From Lytechinus variegatus (lineage: Eukaryota > Echinodermata > Echinoidea > Temnopleuroida > Toxopneustidae), in the NCBI RefSeq assembly GCF_018143015.1, contig NC_054752.1, positions 5,257,216 through 5,321,215 of the forward strand: DNA of 64,000 nucleotides, written 5' to 3'. Made by a program: the position numbers and the translations under genes. The notes under the pieces were generated by a model. It was not told the origin of the DNA, did not search any database, and saw nothing but the letters and a program-made list of their open reading frames with translations. Below, piece by piece: positions 3,257 to 62,830 of this stretch (position 1 is its first letter; each line of letters starts with the position of its first letter).

Positions 3257-3544
3257 AAGCCCCTTTTACACCTTCACGGATGCAACACGGATCATCACGG
3301 ATCTCAGTCCGTGATGATCCGGGGTGCCAAATTTGTATTTTCCTAGCATTCCCGGAGTGAGTACGGAGTTAACTGGTTATTAACACGGATATGTACGGAA
3401 AAGTACGGAGTCTACAAGGATAGGCAAGGTAGCAATAGGGATCCTGTTTGATATGCTCCCGGAGCCAACACGGAATACCCGGATGATCACGGATGTGACT
3501 GGGTCTTTACACGGACCTTCACGGTTGCTCACATTCTGTACTGG

Positions 3545-4475
3545 GATATATTACTTTGTATTTACTTTGTATTTACGACCACTTGGGGACATTCTGAGGA
3601 ACAATGGTGTTGAATTTCATTTATATGCTGATGATGTTCAGTTATACTATTCTTTTGATCCCAAATCTCAAACTAGTTTTCGCAATGCCATTTCCTTGAT
3701 TGAGAAATGTGTTCAGGAAATTAATGAATGGATGATAAGAAATAAGTTACTATTGAATGAACAAAAAACAGAGTCTCTTTTGATAATTTCTCCGAAACTT
3801 AGGCACTATTTATCTGACCGTGTTCATTTGTTAATTGGTGATGCTATCATTGAACCTGCCGAATCTGTCAGAACTTTAGGTGTTCAATTTGATTCGTCAC
3901 TGACGATGACTCATCAAATAAATTCCCTATGTAAAACACTTAATTTTCATTTATACAATATATCTAGGGTCAGGAAAATGTTGACGTATGAGGCTTGCCA
4001 TCATGCAGTTCGCTCACTGGTTTTAAGCCGTCTGGATAATGCAAATTCTCTTTTGATTAATATTAATGTTTCCGACTTAGATAGACTACAACGAATTCAG
4101 AATCGTGCAGCTCATATTATTTCAATGGCTAGAAAATATGATCACGTGTCTCCTTTGTTCAAAGAACTTCATTGGTTACCGGTAAGAAAGAGAATTACAT
4201 AGAAGATTGCATTGCTTGTTTACATGTCCATGAATAACCTTACACCACAATACATATCATGTCTGTTTTCTCCAGTTCAACAAAGTCAATATTCATTACG
4301 TTCTAGAACAGACCCTTTTCTTTTACAAGTCCCAAGAATGAACTCCAAGAAATGTCAACAATGCATAGGTTTCACAGGTCCCAATATTTGGAATAATCTC
4401 CATATCAACATCCGCTCATGTCCTTCACTGCAATTATTCAAAAACAAACTAAAGACCTATTTATTTTCTTTGTAA
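3545..4475 (+). pseudogene. 5'-truncated non-LTR (CR1/L2-like) reverse transcriptase fragment
   Basis: This is the C-terminal part of a LINE reverse transcriptase. The translation contains the catalytic box YADD (context HLYADDVQLY, about residue 58 of the frame opening at 3,453), followed by QEINEWM..NKLLLN, then LHWLPVRKRIT and, after a stop, KIALLVYMSMN, and finally WNNLHINIRSCPSLQLFKNKL. This motif order matches CR1/L2-group elements of animals. The first ~31 codons of that frame belong to the interrupted GGA element, so the real homology begins near 3,546. An in-frame TAG at 4,200-4,202 replaces the residue between T and K (usually Y), so the copy is dead. The endonuclease domain and upstream reverse-transcriptase motifs are absent, as expected for 5' truncation on insertion. 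Confidence 0.85.
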
Positions 4476-4617
4476 TATCCATTTGATTAATATTGTTAGC
4501 ACTTGGAGAGCAGAATATTCAACATAATTATAATATGATACTGTAAAGCGCTTTGAGCATGTTTACATGGAAAAGCGCGATATAAATATTAAATGTATGT
4601 ATGTATGTATATATCAA
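4476..4617 (+). mobile_element. LINE 3' UTR and ATGT-repeat tail
   Basis: Downstream of the reverse transcriptase stop is a short 3' UTR with AAAGCGCTTTGAGCATG, then AAAAGCGCGATATAAAT, ending in an ATGT microsatellite (4,593-4,611). A GCGCTTTG..AAAGCGC stem followed by ATATAAAT and a microsatellite is typical of CR1/L2-group 3' ends. A SINE at 25,005-25,280 carries a similar tail. Confidence 0.8.
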
Positions 4618-5087
4618 GTGCATTAGGCAAGTATTCTGACGATAAAATACATAGAAAATTGACCTAAATAAGGGCCAAACAATTATCATAATGATACAAA
4701 TGCTATTTGTACCCAAAATGATAAACTTTTTAGGTGTAATTATCAAATTATACATAATATTGCAAAATATGCATAAATTTGCATAATTAATTAGCCGCAA
4801 ACAGAAATAACAAATTTTCCCGAATGGTACAGTATGCAGGATTTTGCAGTATCCATGTCGATGAAAGCGAGTATTATAAAAGAATATTGTAGAAATAAGA
4901 TTTTAAATGGTCAATTTGGCAGCCATTTTGTTTATGCAAATTAGGTGGTCAAGACATTAAAAAATTGGCTCGGGAACCGGTCTTATTAGATTCAGCACCT
5001 TCAAATTAGGTGAAATAGACCGGTTCCCAACTTTTACCCCAAAATGCTCCTTGAATTCAAATTCTCCCAATATTGGTCTTGTCTAGA
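4618..5087. repeat. AT-rich repeat with inverted pair
   Basis: This segment sits between the LINE tail and the resumed GGA element. It has a strong inverted pair, CGGGAACCGGTC at 4,971 and GACCGGTTCCC at 5,018, with an inner CACCT/AGGTG stem. It is probably part of another mobile insertion. No open frame is supported. Confidence 0.45.
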
Positions 5088-5473
5088 TATGAATACGGAC
5101 TATTGTTCATGTACGCAAACAATACAAACATTTGACCCCGGATAAAGCCGGTATCAACAAGGATCACCCGGTTCTTACAAGGAGCCTCCCGGATGCATTC
5201 GGTAGCTACACGGATGTACAAGGATGAACACGGATGATTATCAGTCCGTGTACTCCGGGATGAAAAATTGAACATGTTCAATTTTTCTCCCGGACATGCC
5301 GGTACATCAAGGATGGCGCCGGATGAGTAGCCGGAGTGTACACGGTAGTCCCGGACTGTACACGGATGACCCCGGATTGACAATCCGGGATGATCCGTGT
5401 TGCTTCCGTGAAGGTGTATTTTGCCAAAGTGCGGAGTCTTTCCATCAGTTTCGGTTATTAAACAATTAAATCT

Positions 5474-6161
5474 AAAGCCCCTTTTACACCTTCACGGATG
5501 CAACACGGATCATCAGTCCGTGATGATCCGGGGTGCCAAATGTGTATTTTCCTAGCATTCCCGGAGTGAGTACGGAGTTAACTGGTTATTAACACGGATA
5601 TGTACGGAAAAGTACGGAGTCTACAAGGATAGGCAAGGTAGCAATAGGGATCCTGTTGGATATGCTCCCGGAGCCAACACGGAATACCCGGATGATCACG
5701 GATATTACTGGGTCTTTACACGGACCTTCACGGTTGCTCACATTCTGTACTGGCTAGAATGAAGTTTCGTCCCTTTTTTGCAGCATCTGGAGCATGCTCG
5801 TGTTTGGTTATGAATACGGACTATTATTCATATACCCAAACAATACAAACATTTGACCCGGATAAAGCCGGTATCAACAAGGATCACCCGGTTCTTACAA
5901 GGAGCCTCCCTGATGCATTCGGTAGCTACACGGATGTACAAGGAGGCTACAAGGATGAACACGGATGATTATCAGTCCGTGTACTCCGGGTTGAAAAATT
6001 GAACATGTTCAATTTTTCTCCCGAACATGCCGGTACATCAAGGATGGCGCCGGATGAGTTAGCCGGAGTGTACACGGTAGTCCCGGACTGTACACGGATG
6101 ACCCCGGATTTACAATCCGGGATGATCCGTGTTGCTTCCGTGAAGGTGTAAAAGGGGCTTT
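5474..6161. mobile_element. Phased-GGA DNA element, copy 2 (complete, 688 bp)
   Basis: Near-perfect terminal inverted repeats of about 40 bp begin AAAGCCCCTTTTACACC at left and end GGTGTAAAAGGGGCTTT at right; GCAACACGGATCAT is matched by ATGATCCGTGTTGC. Between them GG dinucleotides, mostly in GGA or GGT words, recur at 5,563, 5,574, 5,584, 5,596, 5,606, 5,616, 5,627, 5,637, 5,647, 5,658, 5,670, 5,681, 5,690, 5,700, 5,710, 5,722 and 5,732, and again from 5,860 to 5,963. The element contains no credible transposase. I see no clear target-site duplication. It is a non-autonomous DNA transposon by structure; its superfamily is unknown. Confidence 0.8.
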
Positions 6162-6227
6162 GGACCCAACAACCAAGACCCTGTATGAAGCATAAGTTTA
6201 GAGCGTTGGGTGAAGGTTTAACAGGGC

Positions 6228-7480: not shown

Positions 7481-8405
7481 TACCATGCCCCTTCACCCTC
7501 TCCTAGCAATCCCTCTCTCCTCCTCACCCTTCCATTCCATATTGTCAATTTCCATCACTGTCTTTCTCTGTATTTCTGTCTCTCTCTATCCCACTCTCGG
7601 TCTAAAATTTCTCTTTTCCCCTTTCACTCTCACTGTCATATTCTTTCCTTTTCTCCCCCTCCTCCCTCTCTCTCTGGTGTTTCTTCTCCGTATCTGAATG
7701 TTCATCTCTCGGCCTCTCTTGCCCTTTTCCTTCCTTTCAGTCCCTTTCATTCAATTTTTTACATCAATTTGTCGTCTCCCCCTCCCCTCCCTCTTTCCCT
7801 TCCTTTCTGTCTCTTTCATTAAAAAAATTCGTCAAATTTTTCATCTACCCTCTCCATTCATGTTTCTCTGTTTCTGTCTCTCCCTCTTTCCCATTGTTTC
7901 TCTTCCTTTCTGTCTTTTTCACTCCTTGTGTCTCTGCGTCCCCTTTAATTCCGTCTCTCCTCCATAATGCTATCTCATGTTTCTCTGTTTCTGTCTCTCT
8001 CTCTCTCCAATTCTTTTCCTTCATTTCTGTCTTTTTTACTTCTTGTGTCTCTGATCCCCTTTGATCCCATCTCCTCTCTATAATTGCATTTAATGTTTCT
8101 CTGTTTCTGTCTCTCCCTCTCCCCCACTGTTTATCTTCCTTTCTGTCTCTTTCACTTCTTGTGTCTTTGTGTCCCCTTTAATCCCCTCTCCCCTCTATAA
8201 ATTTATCCCATGTTTCTCTGTTTCTTTTCCTCCCCTTCGTTTCTGTCTCTTTCACTTCTTGTGTCTTTGTGTCCCCTTTAATCCTCACTCCCCTCTATAA
8301 TGTTATCTCATGTTTCTGTCTCTCCCCTTCTTTTCCTTCGTTTCTGTCTCTTTCACTTCTTGTGTCTCTGTTTCCCCGTCTCTCTCTCCCTCTCTCTTTC
8401 TATTC
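7481..8405. repeat. C/T-rich minisatellite, unit 1
   Basis: A pyrimidine-rich tract with tandem copies of about 115-120 bp. The word ATGTTTCTCTGTTTCTGTCTC recurs in full or part near 7,860, 7,978, 8,092, 8,211 and 8,308. Equivalent tracts start the other units (23,160; 33,760; 50,300; 62,030). Open frames at 7,473-7,967 are low-complexity products of this tract and not genes. Confidence 0.8.
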
Positions 8406-11901: not shown

Positions 11902-13710
11902 CTAGACGATGAATTGCTTTTTGAATATGAGAATATTATCTCCATCACATGCAATTATATTCCCTGATGACATCATCATCACTCGAGATACGGTAAGGTG
12001 ATATCTATTCCCCATTGTAGTTGATAAAGGGAATAATGCTACTCTTCTCTTCTTCATATCACCCTCACTCATCACCTGATCAATCACACGCGTCTTTCTC
12101 TCATCATCTGATGTCACGACGTAGAGGTCGTCTGTCATACGATCAACACACACATTCAAGATGACATCACTGTGGGGGATTTCCCTATGATCACCCTCTC
12201 TGTCAATGATGAGTGCTCTGCGATCAGATGGTGAAGGTCGAGCGATGATGTGACCTGATGACAGCACATCGTACATTACTATCTTCTCTTTACACGTGAT
12301 GGTATTGATAATCTCATCATTAGCTGGGTTGATGACGTATATCATAGACTGACCCGATTCAGCAGCGATGATCATCCCATCCTGATCGATTGCAACGCGC
12401 ACCGCTACATCAGTACGCGTCGTGTTTCTTGGTATTGTGACGTCATTGATGTGATTCCACTGTCTGTCGTATACACTGATGCACCCAGGTAGACTGTCTC
12501 CTCTACAACCTGTGATGTATCTACCACATACTATCTTGTCATCATTCACTGCTGCACATGATGTTATATATGTATCACTACCTTTGATCACGCTCTGTGT
12601 GGTTTTACTGTTCAAATGTAACATGTAGGTGTGTGTTCCACCAAAGTTCCTATCTGTGATCATCACCTTATCTTCATCTATACATCCAACAATGTACGGG
12701 AATGTGATTTTATCTCTGACATTGATTGTATCAATGAGCTTCCACTCTCCATCATACCCATCAATTCTTCCATCATACTTCTCTCTCCCAACACCCTTCA
12801 CAAACCTCACACCTGATACAACACGATTTATTTCTTTCACCTCACCCTCATTCAGTTGCTTCTTTAGTTCCTCACTCACTGATGCATGCACACGATGTCC
12901 ATCTATGACAATATTTTTATCGTCTTCAAGAATTCTGTCCAGTGTCTCTTTTGCTTTCTCTGCTGATTTGATGTCGTCTTGCCATGATTTCTCAAGCTCT
13001 CCAATCTTTCTCTCGATCTCTTGAGCGATCTTCTGAATGTCACCATGAAGAATGCGTTGTTTATCAGTAATCGGCTTTCGTCTTTTCTCTGCAATTGAAC
13101 GATTTTCTTCATGCCGCTTCTCTCTCTTCTCATTGTTCTTTTCAATTTTATCCTTGAGCTTTCGAATCTCCTTCTGAAGTTGTTCATTTTCCCCATCAAT
13201 TTCCTTGTCGATTTTATCAGCATCTTCCTTTTCCCTGGCTGTGTCTCTTTCGATCGCGATTTCGATTTCGGAATCAACACCACGCTGAATAGTTTGTAAA
13301 TGTTCGTCTTTGGCTTGTCTGGTCTTATGAATCTCATTCCCATAGATGCGACATAACTCTGATTTATCACTCGCTCTATTCTTTAGGATGCTGAGATCTT
13401 CTCTATTTTTCTTCAGTGCGATCATGATATCCTCTTGAACGCACTGTTGTTGGCGATGATCTATCGATGCACATGAATAACATAATGCTACGTTATGTGT
13501 TCTGCAATACAAACGTATTAATTCGTCATGTTCCTTACATAAGAGATTAGGTACACCTCTTCGTACTATTCCAATGCATTCTTTTTTCAAGGCGCAGTCA
13601 TGACAGAGCTTCTTCTTCTCCTTCACATAGAACGTGACGTCAGTAACTGATTTACATTCAGCTTCTTCACAAACAGCGCCCTCTACTAACGAGCTAAATT
13701 CAGACGCCAT
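11902..13710 (-). CDS. TRIM-like B-box/coiled-coil/propeller protein, copy A (intact)
   Basis: This is a 602-residue single-exon reading frame starting at MASEF. The frame stays open 35 codons further upstream, but MASEF/MASEL/MASKF is the start kept in all four copies, and a splice acceptor lies just upstream at 13,745. Residues 14-45 hold a divergent first zinc module (C14, C19, C36, C39, C45). Residues 58-90 form a B-box 2: C58-x2-H61-x7-C69-x2-H72-x4-C77-x2-C80-x4-H85-x4-C90. Residues ~95-265 are a charged coiled coil rich in K/E/R. Residues ~225-330 are the most conserved part across copies. Residues ~322-602 show repeated short beta-rich units such as GCIDEDKVMITD and AIDQDGMIIAA, resembling an NHL/six-bladed propeller. 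There is no RING finger, so E3 ligase activity is not supported; the role is more likely scaffold or ligand recognition. It is probably cytoplasmic: I see no signal peptide or membrane helix. Echinoderms are known for expanded TRIM-like families, some considered immune. Function here is inferred. Confidence 0.87.
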   Translation of the reverse strand: MASEFSSLVEGAVCEEAECKSVTDVTFYVKEKKKLCHDCALKKECIGIVRRGVPNLLCKEHDELIRLYCRTHNVALCYSCASIDHRQQQCVQEDIMIALKKNREDLSILKNRASDKSELCRIYGNEIHKTRQAKDEHLQTIQRGVDSEIEIAIERDTAREKEDADKIDKEIDGENEQLQKEIRKLKDKIEKNNEKREKRHEENRSIAEKRRKPITDKQRILHGDIQKIAQEIERKIGELEKSWQDDIKSAEKAKETLDRILEDDKNIVIDGHRVHASVSEELKKQLNEGEVKEINRVVSGVRFVKGVGREKYDGRIDGYDGEWKLIDTINVRDKITFPYIVGCIDEDKVMITDRNFGGTHTYMLHLNSKTTQSVIKGSDTYITSCAAVNDDKIVCGRYITGCRGDSLPGCISVYDRQWNHINDVTIPRNTTRTDVAVRVAIDQDGMIIAAESGQSMIYVINPANDEIINTITCKEKIVMYDVLSSGHIIARPSPSDRRALIIDREGDHREIPHSDVILNVCVDRMTDDLYVVTSDDERKTRVIDQVMSEGDMKKRRVALFPLSTTMGNRYHLTVSRVMMMSSGNIIACDGDNILIFKKQFIV

Positions 13711-14862
13711 CCTAATAAAAGTCAAAGGAAGATCTGGGTGAAAGCTGTACAGAAAGTTTTGAGAGAGAAAGAAAGGAATACAAGGAAATGACAATCTAAT
13801 TAAATTTAGATACATGTGTGTAAACCGTTATAAAAAAGAAAAACTCGTGCGAGAAAAGGGAGAGAAAAAGAGGTAGGACCGAGCGAGTGGGGGAGAAAGA
13901 GGGGGAAGGGGGGGGGGGGGGCAGTTTTAGCGTTACAATGCTTATGTTTGAAACCCTGTGTATATTTATTTGACCCCAAGTCGACCCCATGACAACATTG
14001 ATTTTTCATTTTTATCTTTCTCATTGACATTGAAATAAAGCAGCAACAATCATACATAAGTATTAAATTATAAACAACCAAGAAGTATGCAATAACATAA
14101 TATTCTGTTAAAGATACAATCAGTCGAGTTATAAGGTAAAAGCTTAATTTAAGTCAAAGAAATATGATTGGACCTACATAAAAGCAAGCTTGTAAAATTG
14201 CAGGCCTCTTTTGGTTCGAATCATTAAAGAAAGCAAAATTAAACAAGCAGAACGATGAAAATTTCATCAAAATCGGATCATCTAAAATCAGAAAGATATG
14301 TATTTCTCACAAAAGAGTTATACGCACAACCCAGTGATATGCAAATGAGAGTCAATTACAACTCACCATTTCCTTTGTTTTTTAATGTTCGAGTGATAAT
14401 ATTTTTCAGTTGTATATATATTTTATAATGAAGACCATTTTGATAGAACCATGCAAATGTTAGGAAATGGTTATTCCACATGTTTATGGATGAATAAATG
14501 TTTGTTTCACATGACGGGGAAAAAATAATAATGTTTCATACAGTAATTAATGTAATACAAAGGCAATGGCGAGTTGGTGATGTCACTAGTCGCCTCATTT
14601 GTGACCGACCTGGATGTGCATATCATAATTATTTTTGTCATAATCGTTATCATAATCATTACTACCATCATCAATATGAGTAGTATTATTATCATTATCA
14701 TAATTATTATTCTCTCCCGAAAGCGCCATGTATTCGATTACTATCCTAAAATTGTTTTATTAATTTAAAAAGATCCGTGTTGAAATAAAAAAAAACTCTA
14801 ATATATCAATCGCATGCAGCAAAAATCAATAATACCATTACACAAAAATGTGAAGTCCTTAC
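13711..14862 (-). other. Gene A 5' UTR end and predicted intron (13,745-14,862)
   Basis: On the minus strand a pyrimidine-rich stretch leads to TTTCTGTACAG with the AG ending at 13,745, giving an acceptor 35 bases before the ATG. A matching donor GACGAAG|GTAAGGA lies with its exon ending at 14,863. The intron contains a G-run with GA-rich flanks (13,860-13,925) also found in units 2 and 4, and a dispersed repeat. Transcript data would be needed to confirm. Confidence 0.6.
14205..14640. repeat. Dispersed repeat of echinoid type inside the intron
   Basis: Words such as TTTCATCAAAATCGG, GATATGCAAATGAGAG and GGTGATGTCACTAGTC occur here in an order I associate with abundant sea-urchin repeats, and relatives occur in the TTAA-flanked MITEs of the gene units. 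The exact ends are unclear. Confidence 0.5.
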
Positions 14863-26586: not shown

Positions 26587-28406
26587 CTAGAGGATGAATC
26601 GCTTTTTTAATATTAGAATATTATCTGCATCACATGCAATCATATTCCCTGATGATGTTATCATCACTCGAGATAAGACAAGATGGTCGAATCTATTATT
26701 TTTATTCAGTCTAGTTGATAAAGGGAATGATGCTACTCTTCTCTTCTTCATATCACCCTCACTCATCACCTGATCAATCACACACGTCTTGTACTCATCA
26801 TTTGATGTCACGACGTAGTGGTCGTCTGTCATACGATCAACGCACACATTCCAGATGACATCACTGTGGGGGATTTCCTTATGATCACCCTCTCTGTCAA
26901 TAATGAGTGCTCTGCGATCTCTTGTAAAGGGTAGAGCGATGATGTGACCTGATGACAGCACATCGCGCATTACTTTCTTTTCTTTACACGTAATGGTATT
27001 GATAATCTCATTATTAACCGGCTTAATGACGTATATCATAGACTGACCCACTTCAGCAGCGATGATCATACAATCCTGATCGATTGCAACGTACACCCCT
27101 GCATCAGTATACGTCGTGTTTCTTGGTATTGTGACGTCATTGATGTGATTCCACTGTCTGTCGTATACACTGATGCACCCAGGTAGACTGTCTCCTGTAC
27201 AACCTTTGATGTATCTACCACATACTACCTTGTCATCATTCAGTACTGCACATGAGATTATATATGATGTATCACTACTGTTGATCACTCTCTGTGTGGT
27301 TTTACTGTTCAAATCTAACATGTAGGTATGTCCTTCACCAATCAGTGCATCTCTGATCATCACCTTATCTTCATCTATACATCCAACAATGCACGGGTAT
27401 TTGATTTTATCTCTGACATTGATTGTATCAATGAGCTTCCACTCTCCATCATACCCATCAATTCTTCCATCATACTTCTCTCTCCCAACACCCTTCACAA
27501 ACCTCACACCTGATACAACACGATTTATTTCTTTCACCTCACCCTCATTCAGTTGCTTCTTTAGTTCCTCACTCACTGATGCATGCACACGATGTCCATC
27601 TATGACAATATTTTTATCGTCGTCAAGAATTCTGTCCAGTGTCTCTTTTGCTTTCTCTGCTGATTTGGTGTCGTCTTGCCATGATTTCTCAAGCTCTCCA
27701 ATCTTTCTTTCGATCTCTTGAGCGATCTTCTGAATGTCAGCATGAAGAATGCACTGTTTATCTTTTATCGGTTTTCGTCTTTTCTCTGCAATTGAACGAT
27801 TTTCTTCATGCCGCTTCTCTCGCTTCTCATTGTTTTCGTGAATCTTATCCTGGAGCTTTCGAATCTCCTTTTGAATTTCTTCATTTTCCCCATCAATCTC
27901 CTTGTCGATCTTATCAGCATCTTTCCTTTCTCTGGCTCTGTCTCTTTCGATCGCGATTTCGATTATGGAATCAACATCGTTCTGAATTGTATGCAAACGA
28001 TCGTCTTTGGCTTGTCTGGTCTGACGAATCTCAATGCCTTTGATTCCATGCATCTCTATTCTGTCGATCACCTTTTTGCTGAGGATGCCGAGAGAGGCCT
28101 TGATTTCCGGAGTGCGTCCTCTACGTCTTGTTTCAAACATTGCTGTTGCCCATGATCTATTAGAGTGCAAGAGACACATAAAGGGATGCCATGTATCTTA
28201 CAATATAGATCAATTAATTTATCATGTTTCTCGCAGTACATGTTAAGCCTACCTCTTCTTTCTATTCCGATGCATTCTTTTTTCAAGGCGCAGTCATGAC
28301 AGAGTTTTTTCTTTTCCTTCACGTAGAACGTGACGTCAGTAATCGATTCGCAGTCGGCTTCTTCACAAACAGCGCCCTCTTGTACAGAGCTTAATTCAGA
28401 CGCCAT
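26587..28406 (-). pseudogene. TRIM-like protein, copy B (one frameshift)
   Basis: This is a full-length relative of copy A, with start MASELSS at 28,406. Both zinc modules are complete: first C14/C19/C36/C39/C45, and B-box 2 from YCEKH through CVSC to DHGQQQC. Shortly after B-box 2, near 28,094-28,100, one base is missing relative to A. The first frame then ends at 28,068, while the coiled coil, linker and propeller continue open in the other frame from before 28,040 to the stop at 26,587. The segment just after B-box 2 (DVEDALRKSR then GILSKKVIDRIE) is quite unlike A, C and D, whereas the coiled coil and linker are nearly identical to A. Without the shift it would make about 606 residues. 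It may be a decayed gene, a real allele or a sequencing error. A splice acceptor lies at 28,441. Confidence 0.82.
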
Positions 28407-28808
28407 TGTGAAAAAAACTAAAGGAAGGTGAGGATGTGAGCTGTAAAGAAAAGGAAGAGAGAGAGATTGGATATCGCAAAAAGCAAGAGGCCTAATAGAA
28501 TATACAATATCTTTTTATCAGAAAAAACTCCCTTGTCGTAATAAATAGTATGCAAGAGAGAGAGAGAGAAAGCCAAGGGGAGAGGGGGGGGGGGGGGGGG
28601 GCGGGGTTAGTGTTCACTTACATTTAAAGTTCCAAGTACGCGTACCTTTTTTTTAAACTCATACATTATTTTCTAATATTCGTTTTTTACAAAAAATGTG
28701 CTTCTTTTTGTGACCAAAATCACGCACTCTTTACAATTACAATTATCATTCTATCAAATAAAAAACACGATAACACTATCAAACCAACACAAAAGTGATG
28801 GTCTTACC
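28407..28808 (-). other. Gene B 5' UTR, predicted intron (28,441-28,807) and donor
   Basis: The minus strand shows a strong pyrimidine tract, then TTCTTTACAG with AG ending at 28,441, 34 bases before the ATG. The donor ACTTACAAAG|GTAAGAC has its exon ending at 28,808. The intron is 367 bp and includes a GA tract and long G-run (28,553-28,603). Gene D has the same acceptor and donor. Confidence 0.65.
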
Positions 28809-38187: not shown

Positions 38188-40027
38188 CTAGAGGATGAAT
38201 CGCTTTTTGAATATGAGAACATTATCTCCATCAGATGCAATCATATTCCCTGATGACGTCATCATCATTCGAGATATGACAAGGTGATTGAATCTATTAT
38301 TTCTATCCAGTCTAGTTGATAAAGGGAATGATGCTACTCTTCTCTTCTTCATATCACCCTCACCCATCACCATCAAACACGTCTTGTACTCATCATCTAA
38401 TGTCACGACGTAGAGGTCGTCTGTCATACAATCAACACACACATTCAAGATGACATCACTGTGGGGGATTTCCCTATGATCACCCTCTCTGTCAATGATG
38501 AGTGCTCTGCGATCTCTTTTAAAGGGTTGAGCGATGATGTGACCTGATGACAGCACATCGTACATTACTATCTTCTCTTTACACGTGATGGTATTGATAA
38601 TCTCATCATTAGCTGGGTTGATGACGTATATCACAGACTGACCATTTTCAGCAGCGATGATCATCCCATCCTGATCGATTGCAACGCGCACCCATGCATA
38701 ATTATTACGCGTCGTGTTTCTTGGTATTGTGACGTCATTGATGTGATTCCACTGTCTGTCGTATACACTGATGCACCCAGGTAGACTGTCTCCTGTACAA
38801 CCTTTGATGCATCTACCACATACTATCTTGTCATCATTCAGCGCTGCACATGAGATTATCCATGATGTATCACTACCGTTGATCACTCTCTGTGTGCTTT
38901 TACTGTTCAAATCTAACATGTAGGTATGTGTTCCACCAATAATAAAATCTGTGATCATCACCTTATCTTCATCTATACATCCAGCAATACGCGGGAATGT
39001 GATTTTATCTGTGACGTTGATTGTATCAATGAGCTTCCACTCTCCATCATACCCATCAATTCTTCCATCATACTTCTCTCTCCCAACACCCTTCACAAAC
39101 CTCACACCCAATACAACGCGATTTATTTCTTTCACATCACCCTCATTCAGTTGCTTCTTTAGTTCCTCACTCACTGATGCATGCACACGATGTCCATCTA
39201 TGACAATATTTTTATCGTCTTCAAGAATTCTGTCCAGTGTCTCTTTTGCTTTCTCTGCTGATTTGATGTCGTCTTGCCATGATTTCTCAAGCTCTCCAAT
39301 CTTTCTCTCGATCATTTGAGCGATGTTCTGAATGTCTCCATGAAGAATGCGTTGTTTATCAATTATCGGCTTTCGTCTTTTCTCTGCAATCGAACGATTT
39401 TCTTCATGCCGCTTCCCCCTCTTCTCATTGTTCTTTTCAATGTTATCTTCGAGCTTTCGAATCTCCTCCTGGAGCTTTCGAATCTCATCTTGAAAATCTT
39501 CATTTTCCCCATCAATCTCGCTATTGATTTTATCAGCATCTTCCTTTTCCCTGGCTCTGTCTCTTTCGATTGCGTTTTCGATTTCGGAATCAACATCATT
39601 CTGAATATTTTGTAGATGTTCATCTTTGGCTTGTCTGGTCTTATGAATCTCATTCCCATAGATGCGACATAACTCTGATCTATCAATCGCCCCTATTCTT
39701 TAGGATGCTGAGATCTTCTCTATTTTTCTTCAGTGCGATCATAATATCCTCTTGAACGCACTGTTCTCGGCGATGATCTGTCAATGCACATGAATAACAT
39801 AATGCTACGTTATGTGTTCTGCAGTACAAGTCCATGATTTTCTCGTGTTTTTCACAGAAGAGATTAGGTGCACCTCTTCGTACAATTCCGATGCATTCTT
39901 TTTTCAAGGCGCAGTCATGACAGAGCTTCTTCTTTTCCTTCACGTAGAACGTGACGTCAGTAATCGATTCACAGTCGGCTTCTTCACAAACAGCGCCCTT
40001 TTCTACTGAGCTGAACTTAGACGCCAT
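38188..40027 (-). pseudogene. TRIM-like protein, copy C (one frameshift)
   Basis: Starts MASKFSS at 40,027 (an in-frame ATG also sits three codons upstream). Both zinc modules are intact: C14/C19/C36/C39/C45 and B-box 2 from FCEKH to DHRREQC. Around residue 112, in a CCCC run at 39,690-39,693, one extra base relative to A shifts the frame, and the first frame stops at 39,683. The coiled coil, linker and propeller are then open in the second frame from about 39,698 to the stop at 38,188. The coiled coil has an extra near-repeat (RKLQEEIRKLED) absent from A and B but shared with D. The propeller differs from A mostly in short loop patches (DFIIGG, NNYAW, QPFKR). As the only defect is in a short homopolymer, a sequencing error or a very recent mutation is plausible. 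Confidence 0.82.
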
Positions 40028-40060
40028 AGTGATCAATGTTTTACCTACAGAAGGGATAAG
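40028..40060 (-). other. Gene C splice acceptor (AG at 40,045)
   Basis: The minus strand reads TTTTCCTTATCCCTTCTGTAG, then GTAAAACATTGATCACT before the ATG: a good acceptor 18 bases upstream. No donor like those of A, B and D is visible in the next 2 kb, so the first exon of C is lost, different or farther away. Confidence 0.55.
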
Positions 40061-40856
40061 GAAAAGGATAAGCTAAACTGGAAAACAAAAACTGTGTTTC
40101 ATGAAAAAAAATATAAAGAGCGTATAAGCAAAAACGGTAAAAGGAAAGAAAATGAATTAAGAAGGGAATGATAACGTGTCTTATTTCCTCGTTATTGATT
40201 ACTCTCCGCCCCTCCCTATTTTACATTCTGCAGATAAAACTGTATATTCAGATTTGATTAGATTGATTTATTTCCTTTTCACAATTGTTCATAATATGAT
40301 AAACATAACATAACAAGGTTGGAAATGCTACAAGCAAAAATATAATATGTATTATTATAGAATTAATGAACACAATTCATTAAATAAAGATATCTCAAAT
40401 GACATTTGTATTAAAAGTAAGACGGAGGGACTTGCTGAAAAATGGAAAGCTTGTATAAGAGGCAAGCACCTTACTTCAATTAAAAATTTATTTCAATCAG
40501 TCAATCGATCATAAAAATACAGGTATATACAAATTAGATACAAACATGGGATTGGCAGCCCCTATAAATTTTCATTAAAAAACTGTGGGTGGGGCAACAC
40601 CAGGTACAATTAAATACAAATTAATATAATACATACATAAAGAGTGAACAAGAAATAACATTGAAATACAATATACAAAAAAAGAAAGAAATAAACGAAA
40701 CAATGGGCTAATATAGGGGAAATAAACAAACAAGTAAACTAGAAGTAATAATTATAAATCAAAATGACCTACAGTGTGCTATTGGCAGGAGTTTTATACT
40801 GAGCGGAAAATTCAACTTTTAAGAGTTTTTTAAAGTCATGCAAAGTTTTACTTTGT
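40061..40856. other. Intergenic upstream of gene C
   Basis: AT-rich, unlike the upstream blocks of B and D. I see no exon, RNA gene or terminal repeat. Confidence 0.45.
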
Positions 40857-53978: not shown

Positions 53979-55794
53979 CTAGAGGATGAATCGCTTTTTG
54001 AATATGAGAATATTATCTCCATCACATGCAATCATATTCCCTGATGACGTCATCATCACTCGAGAAAAGACAAGGTGACTTAATCTAGTATCCAGTCTAG
54101 TTGATAAAGGGAATGATGCTACTCTTCTCTTCTTCATATCACCCTCACTCATCACCTGATCAATCACACACGTCTTGTACTCATCATCTGATGTCACGAC
54201 GAAGATGTCGTCTGTCATACAATCAACACACACATTCAAGATGACATCACTGTGGGGGATTTCCCTATGATCACCCTCTCTGTCAATGATGAGCGCTCTG
54301 CGATCTCTTCTCCGGGTAGAGCGATGATGTGACCTGATGACAGCATATCGTACATTACTATTTCTCTTTACACGTGATGGTAATCTTATCATTAACTGGT
54401 TGATGACGTATATCATAGACTGACCCACTTCATCAGCGATGATCATCCCATCCTGATCGATTGCAATGTACACCCCTACATCAGTACGCGTGGTGTTTCT
54501 TGGGATTGTGACGTCATTGATATGATTCCACTGTCTGTCGTATACACTGATGCACCCAGGTAGACTGTCTCTGTACAACCTTTGATGTATCTACCACATA
54601 CTATCTGTCATCATTCAGTACCTGCACATGAGATTATACATGATGTAACACTACCGTTGATCACTCTCTGTGTGGTTTTGCTGTTCAAATCTAACATGTA
54701 GGTATGTGTTCCACAATATTAAAATCTGTGATCATCACCTTATCTTCATCTATACATCCAGCAATGCGCGGTATTTGATTTTATCTCTGACGTGATTGTA
54801 TCAATGAGCTTCCACTCTCCATCATACCCATCAATTCTTCCATCATACTTCTCTCTCCCAACACCCTTCACAAACCTCACACCTGATACAACACGATTTA
54901 TTTCTTTCACCTCACCCTCATTCAGTTGCTTCTTTAGTTCCTCACTCACTGATGCATGCACACGATGTCCATCTATGACAATATTTTTATCGTCTTCAAG
55001 AATTCTGTCCAGTGTCTCTTTCGCTTTCTCTGCTGATTTGATGTCGTCTTGCCATGATTTCTCAAGCTCTCCAATCTTTCTCTCGATCATTTGAGCGATG
55101 TTCTGAATGTCTCCATGAAGAATGCGTTGTTTATCAATTATCGGTTTTCGTCTTTTCTCTGCAATCGAACGATTTTCTTCATGCCGCTTCCCCCTCTTCT
55201 CATTGTTTATTTCAATTTATCCTCGAGCTTTCGAATCTCCTCCTGGAGCTTCGAATCTCATCTTGAAAATCTTCATTTTCCCCATCAATCTCGCTATTGA
55301 TTTTATCAGCATCTTCCTTTTCCCTGGCTCTGTCCCTTTCGATCGCGTTTTCGATTTCGGAATCAACATCATTCTGAATAGTTTGTAGATGTTCGTCTTT
55401 GGTTGTCTGGTCTTATGAATCTCATTCCCATAGATGCGACATAACTCTGATTTATCATTTGCCATATTCTTTAGGATGCTGAGATCTCTATTGTTCTTCA
55501 GTGCGATCATGATATCCTCTTGAACGCAATGTTGTTGGCGATGATTTATCGATGCACACGAATAACATAATGCTACGTTATGTGTTCTGCAGTACAAACA
55601 AATAATTCGTCATGATCCTTACATAAGAAATTAGGTACACCTCTTCGTACTATTCCGATGCATTCTTTTTTCAGGCGCAGTACATGACAGAGCTTCTTCT
55701 TCTCATTCACGTAGAACATAACATCAGTAATCGATTCACAGTCGGCTTCTTCACAAACAGCGCCCTCTACTACTGAGCTGAATTCAGACGCCAT
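53979..55794 (-). pseudogene. TRIM-like protein, copy D (multiple frameshifts)
   Basis: Starts MASEFSS at 55,794. Compared with A and C, an insertion then a deletion near 55,675-55,690 turn DCA into VLR, removing zinc ligand C39. A one-base loss near 55,602 shifts the frame before B-box 2 is finished, and that frame ends at 55,573. Further small gaps lie at about 55,485, 55,404, 55,250, 55,217, 54,795, 54,775, 54,715, 54,605, 54,571 and in 54,300-54,400. The stretch 54,800-55,195, coding for the second half of the coiled coil and the linker, has none. The last propeller part (53,979-54,300) is open and ends in KKRFIL like C. Splice acceptor and donor are well preserved. Either a decayed gene or a poorly polished assembly segment. 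Confidence 0.82.
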
Positions 55795-56227
55795 CGTGAA
55801 AATAATTAAAGGAAGATAAAGGATGGGGAGCTGTAAAGAAAAGGAAGAGAGAGAGATTGGATATCGCAAAAAGCAAGAGGCATAATAGATAGCACAATAT
55901 TTTTTAATCAGAAAAAACTCCCTTGCAGAAATAAATAGAATGCGAAAGAGAGAGAGAGGGAGAGAATCAGGCGAAGAGCGGGGGGCGGGGGGGAGCAGGG
56001 TTACTGTTCGCAGGGTTACTGTTCACTTACATTTAAAGTTCCAAGTACGCGTACCTTTTTTTAAACTCACACATTATTTTCTGATATTCGTTTTTTACAA
56101 AACATGTGCTTCTTACAAAACACGTAAAGTGACCAAAATCACGCACTCTTTACAAATACAATTATCATTACATCACATCAAAAACATGGAAACGCTATCA
56201 AACTAACACAAAAGAGATGTTCTTACC
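55795..56227 (-). other. Gene D 5' UTR, predicted intron (55,831-56,226) and donor
   Basis: The acceptor TTCTTTACAG ends at 55,831 and the donor ACTTACAAAG|GTAAGAA has its exon ending at 56,227. Both match gene B. The intron has a GA tract and G-runs (55,945-56,000). Confidence 0.62.
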
Positions 56228-60327: not shown

Positions 60328-62029
60328 CAAAGGGCAGGCTTTCATATGCCAAAACTTGTTAAGGAGGACATTTTCAGAAAATTGAAAATACCTGTGGAGG
60401 GTGCTTTTGGAAACTCGCGATCGCGCCTAGTACCCACTCGACAATGAAAGTGCCCCGCGCAATTTTAGCACAAAAAACAGTTATGTGTGTCTCTTTGTAT
60501 CGGTGCAGAAGGGGGGAGGGGGGATGATTATCGATGCTAAACCTTTCTCTCTTTCGAGACAGAGAAAACCGACCCCAAAATTGTATTGGCGTCTTGAAGC
60601 AAAAAAAAAAAAAAAAAAAGATGGACCAAAATCGAAATTTGTTACATTTCAGAGAGAAGATACTGATTACGCTTTTTTCGACATGCATATATAAAAATGC
60701 ATACATAAAAAGTAGCCCACATATCTACGCTATCAAACTTCTCTCCTCACTGCCCCCCCCCCCCCTCTCCTTTACACACACGCCCACCCACGTATTCACT
60801 CACACCCAATCGTGCATGCGCAACAACTCCAGCACACCTGACTTTTTATCACTCTCTATCGTCATCTTGCAATAATGCAGTTGCTTTGCATACTTTAAAA
60901 ATAGGGTGTCTTCGTATTATTGTCATGGGAATTGTAATGAAAATCCACCTATCTCACTTCCGACATCATTATTTCCCGCGCTATCTCCCTCTTCACTGAT
61001 CTCTCTTCCCTTCTCTCTCTCTTTCTCCCTCTCAATTATCCTCTTTCAATCATTTATTATCTAGGACTTATAATTCAATGAATGCATTTCTCGCTTTCTA
61101 GTTCCCTCCCCTCTTCTCTCAGTCACCTCGACCTCCCATCTCTCCCACCCTCTCTCTCTCTCACTCTTCATCTCTCTCCCCTTCTCTCTATTTCAATTAT
61201 CCTCTTTCAATCACTTATTATCTAGTACTTATAATTCAATGAATGCATTTCTCGCTTTCTAGTTCCCTCCCCTCTTCTCTCAGTCACCTCGACCTCCCAT
61301 CTCTCCCACCCTCTCTCTCTCATCGTCTCTCAAATCATTCACAGTATTTTTACTCTTGAAATCACGAGATTGTGTGGCTTCTATTGTGAACAATAAATGC
61401 TTTTACTGAAACATGAAAATCATCTAGCGTGAAGAGAATAGAAACCTTGGAATAAAATGATCTAATTTTTCTTATACAAACATTACTCATGAGTATCCTA
61501 TTCAGGTTTGACTAAAAGAAGAATCATGTGGTTTTACCTAGCTTTTTCAAAATGTATTCTTGTTTTGGGTTTCCGCTACTGTTTACGAAATTCATGAAAG
61601 CAAAAAAAAAAAAATAAGAAATGGATTTTGCTATCATTTTAGCACATAGTCAAGTTACTTCAATGTTTTATCACCATTCCGTATAATTACCATTCTGGGC
61701 TGAGTTATTATTTAGCCAATTGAGCACTTTATGTAATGTCGAGTTTGGCCATTCCCATATCGTCTTATATATCCACTTAATCTAACAGCATTTATGGTAT
61801 ATCATTATATGAATTAATTATGGATCACATTTCCATTAGGCAAGTACAACAGATAATAGACTTAATGAAAGCTATACCCAATCCGGGCATTAGACTAGAT
61901 GACATTTCAGACCAAGGGATGCTTGTAACAAACTAATACTAGACCACATTGATGGTAGACCAAGAGGGTTTGATGATGATCGGAGAATAAAATACGTCAA
62001 CTTCACTACAACCCCCCTCTCCTGTCTCT
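60328..62029. repeat. Unit 5 left part
   Basis: 60,620-61,980 aligns with 49,200-50,285. It carries an extra two-copy 161-bp tandem repeat (61,033-61,320; TTATCCTCTTTCAATCA twice) absent from unit 4. 60,330-60,615 has a poly-A run and no recognised feature. No gene. Confidence 0.7.
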
Positions 62030-62830
62030 CTTTCTCCTTTCTGCTTGTCACATTTTCTCACTATCCCCCTCCCCCTCTCTCCCTCTCTCTGGTCATGCTG
62101 GTGTTCCTTTTCTGTCTCTGAATGTTCATTTGCCATCTCCCCCGTCTCTCTCCCCTTTCTGCTTGTCACATTCTCTCACTACCCCCCCCCCCTCTCTATC
62201 TATCTATCTCTCTGCTGTTCTTTTTCTGTCTCTGAATGTTCATTTGCCCTCTCCCCCGTCTCTCTCTCCTTTCTGCTTGTCACATTCTCTCACTACCCCC
62301 CCCCCTCTCTATCTATCTATCTCTCTGGTGTTCTTTTTCTGTCTCTGAATGTTCATTTGCCATCTCCCCTGTCTCTCTCTCCTTTCTGCTTGTCACATTC
62401 TCTCACTACCCCCCCCCCCTCTCTATCTATCTATCTCTCTGGTGTTCCTTTTCTGTCTCTGAATGTTCATTTGCCATCTCCCCCGTCTCTCTCCCCTTTC
62501 TGCTTGTCACATTCTCTCACTACCCCCTCTCTATCTATCTCTCTGGTGTTCCTTCTCTGTCTCTGAGTGTTCATTTGCCATCTCCCCTCTCCCTATTTTA
62601 CTCTCTTTCTGTCTCGTTCTTTGAATTAATTTCGTCCGATTATTCATCTCTCTCTCTGTGTCTCCCTTCCGTCTCCCCTCTATTTTGTTTCATATGTCTA
62701 TATTTCTGTATCTCCCTCTCGTCCCCTCCTGCCCTGTTTCCCTTCCTTTCTGTCTCTTTCACTGCTTGTGTCTTTGTTTCCCCGTCTCTCTCTCCCTCAC
62801 TTTAGCTCTCTCTGCACATCTCTTTTCTTG
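62030..62830. repeat. C/T-rich minisatellite, unit 5 (five ~114-bp copies)
   Basis: TTTCTGCTTGTCACATT recurs at 62,038, 62,156, 62,270, 62,383 and 62,497, with C-runs and TCTATC stretches between. Unit 4 has a single copy. The long open frames here (to 189 codons) are repeats of CSFSVSECSF in a tract without third-base signal and are not genes. Confidence 0.9.

Follow-up and report, generated by a model that had tools for sequence, protein, structure and literature searches.

The window, by which the whole 64-kb stretch of DNA analysed here is meant, carries two copies of one transposon, a long interrupted form (copy 1) and a short complete form (copy 2), whose features are collected in Table 1. 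The terminal arms of copy 2 (5471-5514 against 6121-6164) were found to be 95% complementary. Copy 1 was identified as a long form spanning 3258-5418, minus its outermost right end and plus an insertion in which the reverse-transcriptase fragment was recognised by RVT_1 with an E value of 5.9e-6, under the Pfam cut-off. Elsewhere in the window, four related gene copies encoding coiled-coil and B-box-like sequence (11902-13827, 26587-28514, 38188-40072 and 53979-56022 (-)), which we take to be TRIM-like, were observed, the first of them scoring 1.7e-4 for zf-B_box, under the Pfam cut-off. The segment 46414-48670 resembles a foldback element, its long inverted arms being built from tandem repeats of 18-23 bp and 49 bp (CCCACAAATGTAATAACG type), and CT-rich minisatellites occupy 62027-62588 (units of about 114 bp) and 7858-8377 (units of 100-117 bp).

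Table 1. Position, strand and description of the features of the two transposon copies in the 64-kb window.
Feature	Position	Strand	Description
Copy 1 (long form), left part	3258..3551	+	carries the same array as copy 2
Insertion inside copy 1	~3552..4608	+	includes the reverse-transcriptase fragment 3564-4199
Long-form centre in copy 1	4609..5073	+	also in L054 and L072, there without the insertion
Copy 1, right part	5074..5418	+	arrays retained; outermost terminus lost past 5418
Left target-site 3-mer TAA	5473..5475	.	beside copy 2
Short-form MITE, complete copy (copy 2)	5476..6159	+	684 bp, AGCCCC...GGGGCT
Left terminal inverted repeat	5476..5514	+	contains two CGGA words
Left phased array	5563..5733	+	C[AC]CGG[AT] words, pitch ~10.56 bp
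Right phased array A	5860..5964	+	pitch ~10.3 bp
Perfect palindrome, 26 bp, between arrays A and B	5993..6018	.	its own reverse matches at 100%
Right phased array B	6032..6107	+	pitch ~10.6 bp
Right terminal inverted repeat	6121..6159	-	pairs with 5476..5514
Right target-site 3-mer TTG	6160..6162	.	TWA in most copies; the pair TAA/TTG is an imperfect TWA duplication

Further copies were sought in the genome assembly (33 contigs, 869.6 Mb in total). Since the genome searches scored 40 of 373, 558 and 355 candidates, the copy numbers are minimum values: at least 44 near-full-length places were found (40 of the 373 candidates scored), and at least 66 distinct full-length copies were collected, with a mean divergence of 1.8% from a family consensus of 694 bp. 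Target-site duplications were counted in the 60 copies with clean ends, the six of 66 with frayed ends being excluded, and TWA was present on both sides in 45 of these 60 and identical flanking 3-mers in 34. The terminal tips throughout the family are AGCCCC...GGGGCT; together with the TWA duplications they bear out the description of the terminal repeats as ordinary in a first-pass annotation of this DNA. The element was classed as a MITE because it contains no transposase gene, a DDE_Tnp_4 gene being absent from the 684-bp copy as expected for a MITE moved in trans, and as PIF/Harbinger type because TWA target duplications flank the copies. It is thus a non-autonomous PIF/Harbinger-type MITE and a new member of that group. 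The AGCCC terminal repeat has 12 of 15 tip bases in common with the DDE_Tnp_4 element L110. Among the 45 TWA-flanked copies, 14 combine TAA at one flank with TTA at the opposite one, a frequency far above the per-base divergence of about 2%, and it seems that the central base of the duplication is switched either in the course of insertion or later. Two copies (L012 and L023) are nested in other copies at nearly the same central point (query position ~373-375) and face opposite ways with respect to the copy that harbours them, L012 being flanked by AAA at both ends; a self-targeting spot at this position is possible.

Phasing was assessed as the Fourier power of GG start positions compared with that of dinucleotide-preserving shuffles. 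The GG starts of the left array, counted at one word per turn with the surplus GG at 5632, 5647 and 5710 (the last two overlapping, in GGG) skipped, run from 5563 to 5732 in 16 intervals of 9-12 bp with a mean of 10.56 bp, as the first-pass annotation had read from 17 GG positions, one of which, at 5658, is a private mutation of copy 2 that is missing in copy 1 and in the family consensus. The power of this array was 13.9-14.0 at T = 10.55-10.65, a value reached by 0 of 1000 shuffles at any period from 4 to 60 bp, and the left half of copy 1, the interrupted copy for which the same phasing had been claimed, gave a power of 16.1, likewise matched by 0 of 1000 shuffles. When 1594 GG- or CC-rich windows of 240 bp from the 64 kb were ranked, the strongest 25 all overlapped copies 1 and 2. 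The right run, for which a pitch near 10.3 bp from 5860 onwards had been noted, was upheld: for GG between 5860 and 5966, 0 of 1000 shuffles were as high within 9.5-11.5 bp and 14 of 1000 over all periods, one turn at 5911 reading TG in copy 2 and GG in the consensus. The third run (6032-6106), to which the first-pass annotation had not referred, was weak for GG when taken by itself (52 of 1000 shuffles in band), as was GG over the whole right half (32 of 1000 in band and 287 of 1000 over all periods); CGG over the whole right half was clear (0 of 1000). Within a run the phase is coherent (r 0.83-0.96 at T = 10.4 for the three main ones), but it does not carry over from one run to the next. 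A strict helical clock is not claimed: the order of intervals was somewhat anticorrelated, suggestively so in single runs, and the pooled permutation P was only 0.05-0.12. Counting 4-mer repeats at lags of 10-12 bp against the mean of 300 shuffles gave 30 against 2.9 for the left side of the MITE and 26 against 3.8 for the right side, with 0 of 300 shuffles as high in both cases. Excess power at 10-11 bp, whose absence across many copies would by the first-pass annotation have refuted the idea, was also present beyond the window copies, in the family consensus and in an old subfamily, and the helical phasing of the GG words is confirmed as real.

A profile of the 38 units of copy 2 defined the unit as C[A/C]CGG[A/T], the other spacer bases carrying little information. 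The consensus contains 38 [CA]GG[AT] words on the plus strand and 11 on the minus strand, seven of the latter lying either in the inward portions of the terminal repeats or next to the 26-bp perfect palindrome. Both halves of the body keep the plus orientation, so that the two ends lack mirror-image arrays: the termini mirror each other and the body does not. The pattern of alternating CAC and CCC words gave 0 matches when searched for in the genome.

Coding elements with DDE_Tnp_4 genes, of which the genome holds at least 150 (150 of 458 candidates were scored, all 150 matching), were examined for comparable arrays. The loci L082-L091 were top hits and L092, L093 and L110-L115 were chosen for their differing transposase lengths, so that they do not form a random sample. 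Element ends were set independently of any array, from the terminal repeat and the target 3-mers, for L110 (3325 bp, TAA/TAA, 446-aa ORF), L112 (4013 bp, TTA/TTA, 449 aa) and L092 (~2.9 kb, TTA/TAA read by eye, 340 aa), and other words (TTGTACGAC, AACGA/GCGCA and CGGCCGATG) were found at the non-coding ends of L110, L112 and L092. The lag test at 10-12 bp yielded 28 against 6.0 on the left (0 of 300 shuffles as high) and 24 against 4.0 on the right (0 of 300) for L092, 34 against 6.2 (0 of 300) and 16 against 5.1 (1 of 300) for L112, and 16 against 4.5 (0 of 300) and 13 against 6.1 (14 of 300) for L110, whose ORF stretch showed no excess (117 of 300 shuffles as high). Stretches of the flanks of L111, L113, L115 and L082, chosen after the excess was seen, peaked at lags of 10, 10-11, 11-12 and 11, respectively. 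A search of L082-L093 and L110-L115 for TIR-like ends, aimed at a coding partner of the MITE, recovered elements related to it by terminal repeat, but none of them had the full repeat or the word. Beside the DDE_Tnp_4 gene of L115, about 1.2 kb (L115:900-2100) is composed of ACTATGTG-like words that recur every 11-12 bp and are embedded in a larger tandem repeat.

With a first window score, 38 of 533 flank windows, at 11 of 16 loci, were selected; windows inside ORFs gave 0 of 65, and the 617 control windows taken from the 64 kb gave about 0.8%. A second score, covering lags 5-30, placed 25 of 326 flank windows, nine of them supplied by L115, above threshold at lags 10-12, representing nine of 17 transposase entries (16 places, since L090 and L093 are the same place) and leaving eight entries, L110 among them, with no such window. 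Flanks of MITE copies used as a control gave 2 of 192 windows and 2 of 24 loci (Fisher 0.0007 for windows and 0.003 for loci, which serve as guides because windows overlap and some loci are related), and a hAT control gave 2 of 102 windows and 2 of 6 loci, the two loci being twins that carry a dinucleotide repeat. The excess lay at lags 10-13 and, to a smaller extent, 21-24, with one window at lags 14-18; lags 6-8 were raised too, in Harbinger flanks and controls, as from simple repeats. L085, the twin of L084, was excluded from both window scores and L093 from the first only, while L110 and L114 belong to one family, as perhaps L086 and L087 also do. Six of 30 loci (L052, L053, L054, L063, L072 and L081) were excluded from the control flanks, namely the window's own locus, two long forms, a nested copy and two already present, and other duplicates were kept. 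Different words at the same pitch in several transposons suggest that the spacing itself is the conserved part of the arrays.

Two origins had been offered for the body in the first-pass annotation, a degenerate satellite or selected phasing, and each retains some support. Under the first, slippage of a 10-11-bp unit followed by decay would have left a functionless, neutral tandem repeat whose pitch is simply the length of the unit, and turnover by whole units is indeed satellite-like. Indels between the window copies comprise one of 9 bp and one of 11 bp; among the 66 copies, eight of 63 distinct indel events are 9-11 bp long, seven of them losses in word-bearing DNA, a count in which the 10-bp losses at positions 27 and 30 could represent a single event. 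Four events of 18-21 bp (at the centre, at an array edge and between arrays) were not used as array evidence. One old copy has gaps of 19 and 21 bp, and the sole array indel common to the old copies, judged by eye in a second alignment, is one 10-bp unit, fixed between subfamilies. Coding elements add to this side, the L115 flank being a plain higher-order repeat and the left end of L092 peaking at lags of 11, 22, 33 and 44. Against it, units next to each other resembled one another no more than units far apart did (mean match for immediate neighbours 3.0 out of 8 in the left array, and 2.5-4.8 further off), and Tandem Repeats Finder reported just one row for copy 2, with two copies of 21 bp. 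In this respect the body departs from a simple 10-11-bp satellite, whose adjacent units should be the more alike.

The conservation of words and spacers bears on the same question. Old copies, which are 73-81% identical to the consensus, were compared with it, and a site was scored as differing between subfamilies when most old copies departed from the young consensus. Five old copies gave changes at 0 of 70 GG sites, 8 of 140 other word positions and 24 of 162 spacer sites; six old copies in the second alignment, which include the nearly identical L101 and L102, gave 2 of 69 for GG, 8 of 136 for the word, 28 of 161 for spacers and 9 of 33 for spacer G. Leaving out a block shifted by one base reduced the last two to 18 of 145 and 6 of 30, for which Fisher tests versus GG gave 0.025 and 0.009; over the different spacer sets p for GG versus spacers ranged from 0.0003 to 0.025, a modest level based on few lineages. 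The GG words are therefore more conserved than spacers between subfamilies (2/69 versus 28/161). GG was not better kept within the young family (0.0216 at body GG and 0.0183 at other body positions), and private changes, acquired after insertion, affected 45 of 371 GG and 82 of 860 spacer cells (p 0.18), with 16 of 236 for non-CpG GG. Since GG is largely retained between subfamilies and both classes decay about alike in dead copies, the words appear to have been kept while the master elements evolved. A neutral repeat would have to accommodate this retention of GG beside changing spacers, as well as several families in which different words share one pitch, and is considered unlikely. The lack of special likeness between neighbouring units, the kept GG and the coding elements with other words at the same pitch together favour phased protein sites, one of the variants of selected phasing that had been put forward.

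The nucleosome variant fared less well, its spacers contributing nothing. Nucleosome positioning or intrinsic bending as the selected property would be in keeping with the alternation of GG and AT steps at 10.5 bp and with the strong bends predicted by a wedge model (134 and 163 degrees per 120 bp, with 0 and 1 of 300 shuffles as high). However, when spacers were shuffled between fixed words, AT power was as high or higher in 1056, 1946 and 1995 of 2000 trials; because the alternation stays as strong or becomes stronger, there is no separate nucleosome-like AT signal, and AT phasing of the nucleosome type is not supported. The words are moreover oriented (38 plus versus 11 minus), which bending does not need, and differ by family, so that the predicted bend may be a by-product of the words and this explanation is judged very improbable. 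The least probable of the explanations weighed is that the words are sites for a host transcription factor driving the transposase gene in coding relatives and inherited by the MITE, as the short, oriented words found ahead of the transposase genes of other elements might suggest, given that each family has its own word, that L092 and L112 bear arrays at both ends and that the MITE has no gene to express.

The reading preferred here, to which a probability of roughly 0.6 is assigned, is that each turn of the helix in an array offers a single binding site to a DNA-binding protein specific to the family. Counting against it are the one-way orientation of the words through the body, the pooled clock P of 0.05-0.12, the transposase entries that lack a window above threshold, the large share of such windows due to L115, the few old lineages behind the conservation comparison, the equal change of GG and other positions within the young family, and the negative outcome of the search for a coding partner with this word. 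The MITE body would be the remnant of both subterminal regions of a larger PIF/Harbinger element that lost its gene, and in such subterminal arrays a short recognition word would recur at roughly every turn of the helix, for the most part pointing the same way. The words are putative binding sites for the DNA-binding protein of the mobilising family, and the pitch would align all sites within a run along the same side of the helix, allowing subunits to stack and thereby to bring the catalytic transposase to the AGCCC ends. Protein binding, its cooperativity, the identity of the protein and mobility driven by the array are what we infer. Candidates for the protein are a Myb-like partner or the N-terminal part of the transposase, the latter because no ORF was recognised as Myb-like when a second gene of this kind was looked for by eye in L092, L110 and L112. 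To our knowledge, how a Harbinger-type transposase finds its own ends genome-wide with a short motif is poorly known, and a helix-phased array, if the reading is true, would be a direct answer. Harbinger Myb-like proteins are described as binding the element ends and as diverging much more between families than the transposase (PMC9179366), and this divergence would fit words that change at constant pitch.

A more far-reaching proposal, held tentatively and at somewhat less than even odds, is that the arrays embody a geometric code, in which each family may alter its word in step with the protein that binds it, every turn still presenting one site on the same face; whole-unit turnover would change words with the phase retained, and the MITE would be a minimal and almost entirely geometric substrate, a scaffold for a cooperative protein filament. 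If true, the arrays would explain the spread of MITEs that keep only subterminal DNA, and changing words at constant pitch would amount to a natural experiment on protein-DNA co-evolution; the pitch could also help to annotate elements that have no sequence match. A description of helix-phased word arrays, whether nearly whole-body or word-swapped, was not found in searches of an open-access library.

Comparison with other sequence collections gave no match to the element or to two of its stretches in viral and phage collections, and a search of papers with the terminal sequence matched just unrelated ones. A loose form of the pattern occurred at three bacterial loci in prokaryote genomes, which was taken as chance. 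Ac/Ds and En/Spm, which belong to other superfamilies, repeat short transposase-binding words near their ends; we know of no regular 10.5-bp pitch in them. Foldback ends in Drosophila contain repeats of 10, 20 and 31 bp. Several transposase sites within repetitive ends are described for Galileo of Drosophila (PMC3688188, PMC3573991), which to that extent is a precedent for the arrays, although Galileo and Foldback differ in belonging to superfamily P and in having long inverted arms and, as described in these papers, the Galileo sites sit in repeats of hundreds of bp and not one per turn. Copy 2 resembles Spy transposons in that it happens to sit between AAA and TTT; Spy elements are described as making no target duplication (PMC11304231, PMC4482050), and the membership suggested by copy 2 alone was ruled out by the identical 3-mers in 34 of 60 copies. 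The closest likeness is to PIF/Harbinger MITEs, with which the element shares the TWA duplication, given as the PIF/Harbinger target in PMC4482050, a terminal repeat starting with A and a tip similar to that of the DDE_Tnp_4 elements of this genome, and it differs from the described PIF/Harbinger MITEs in that nearly its whole body is a helix-phased array of words.
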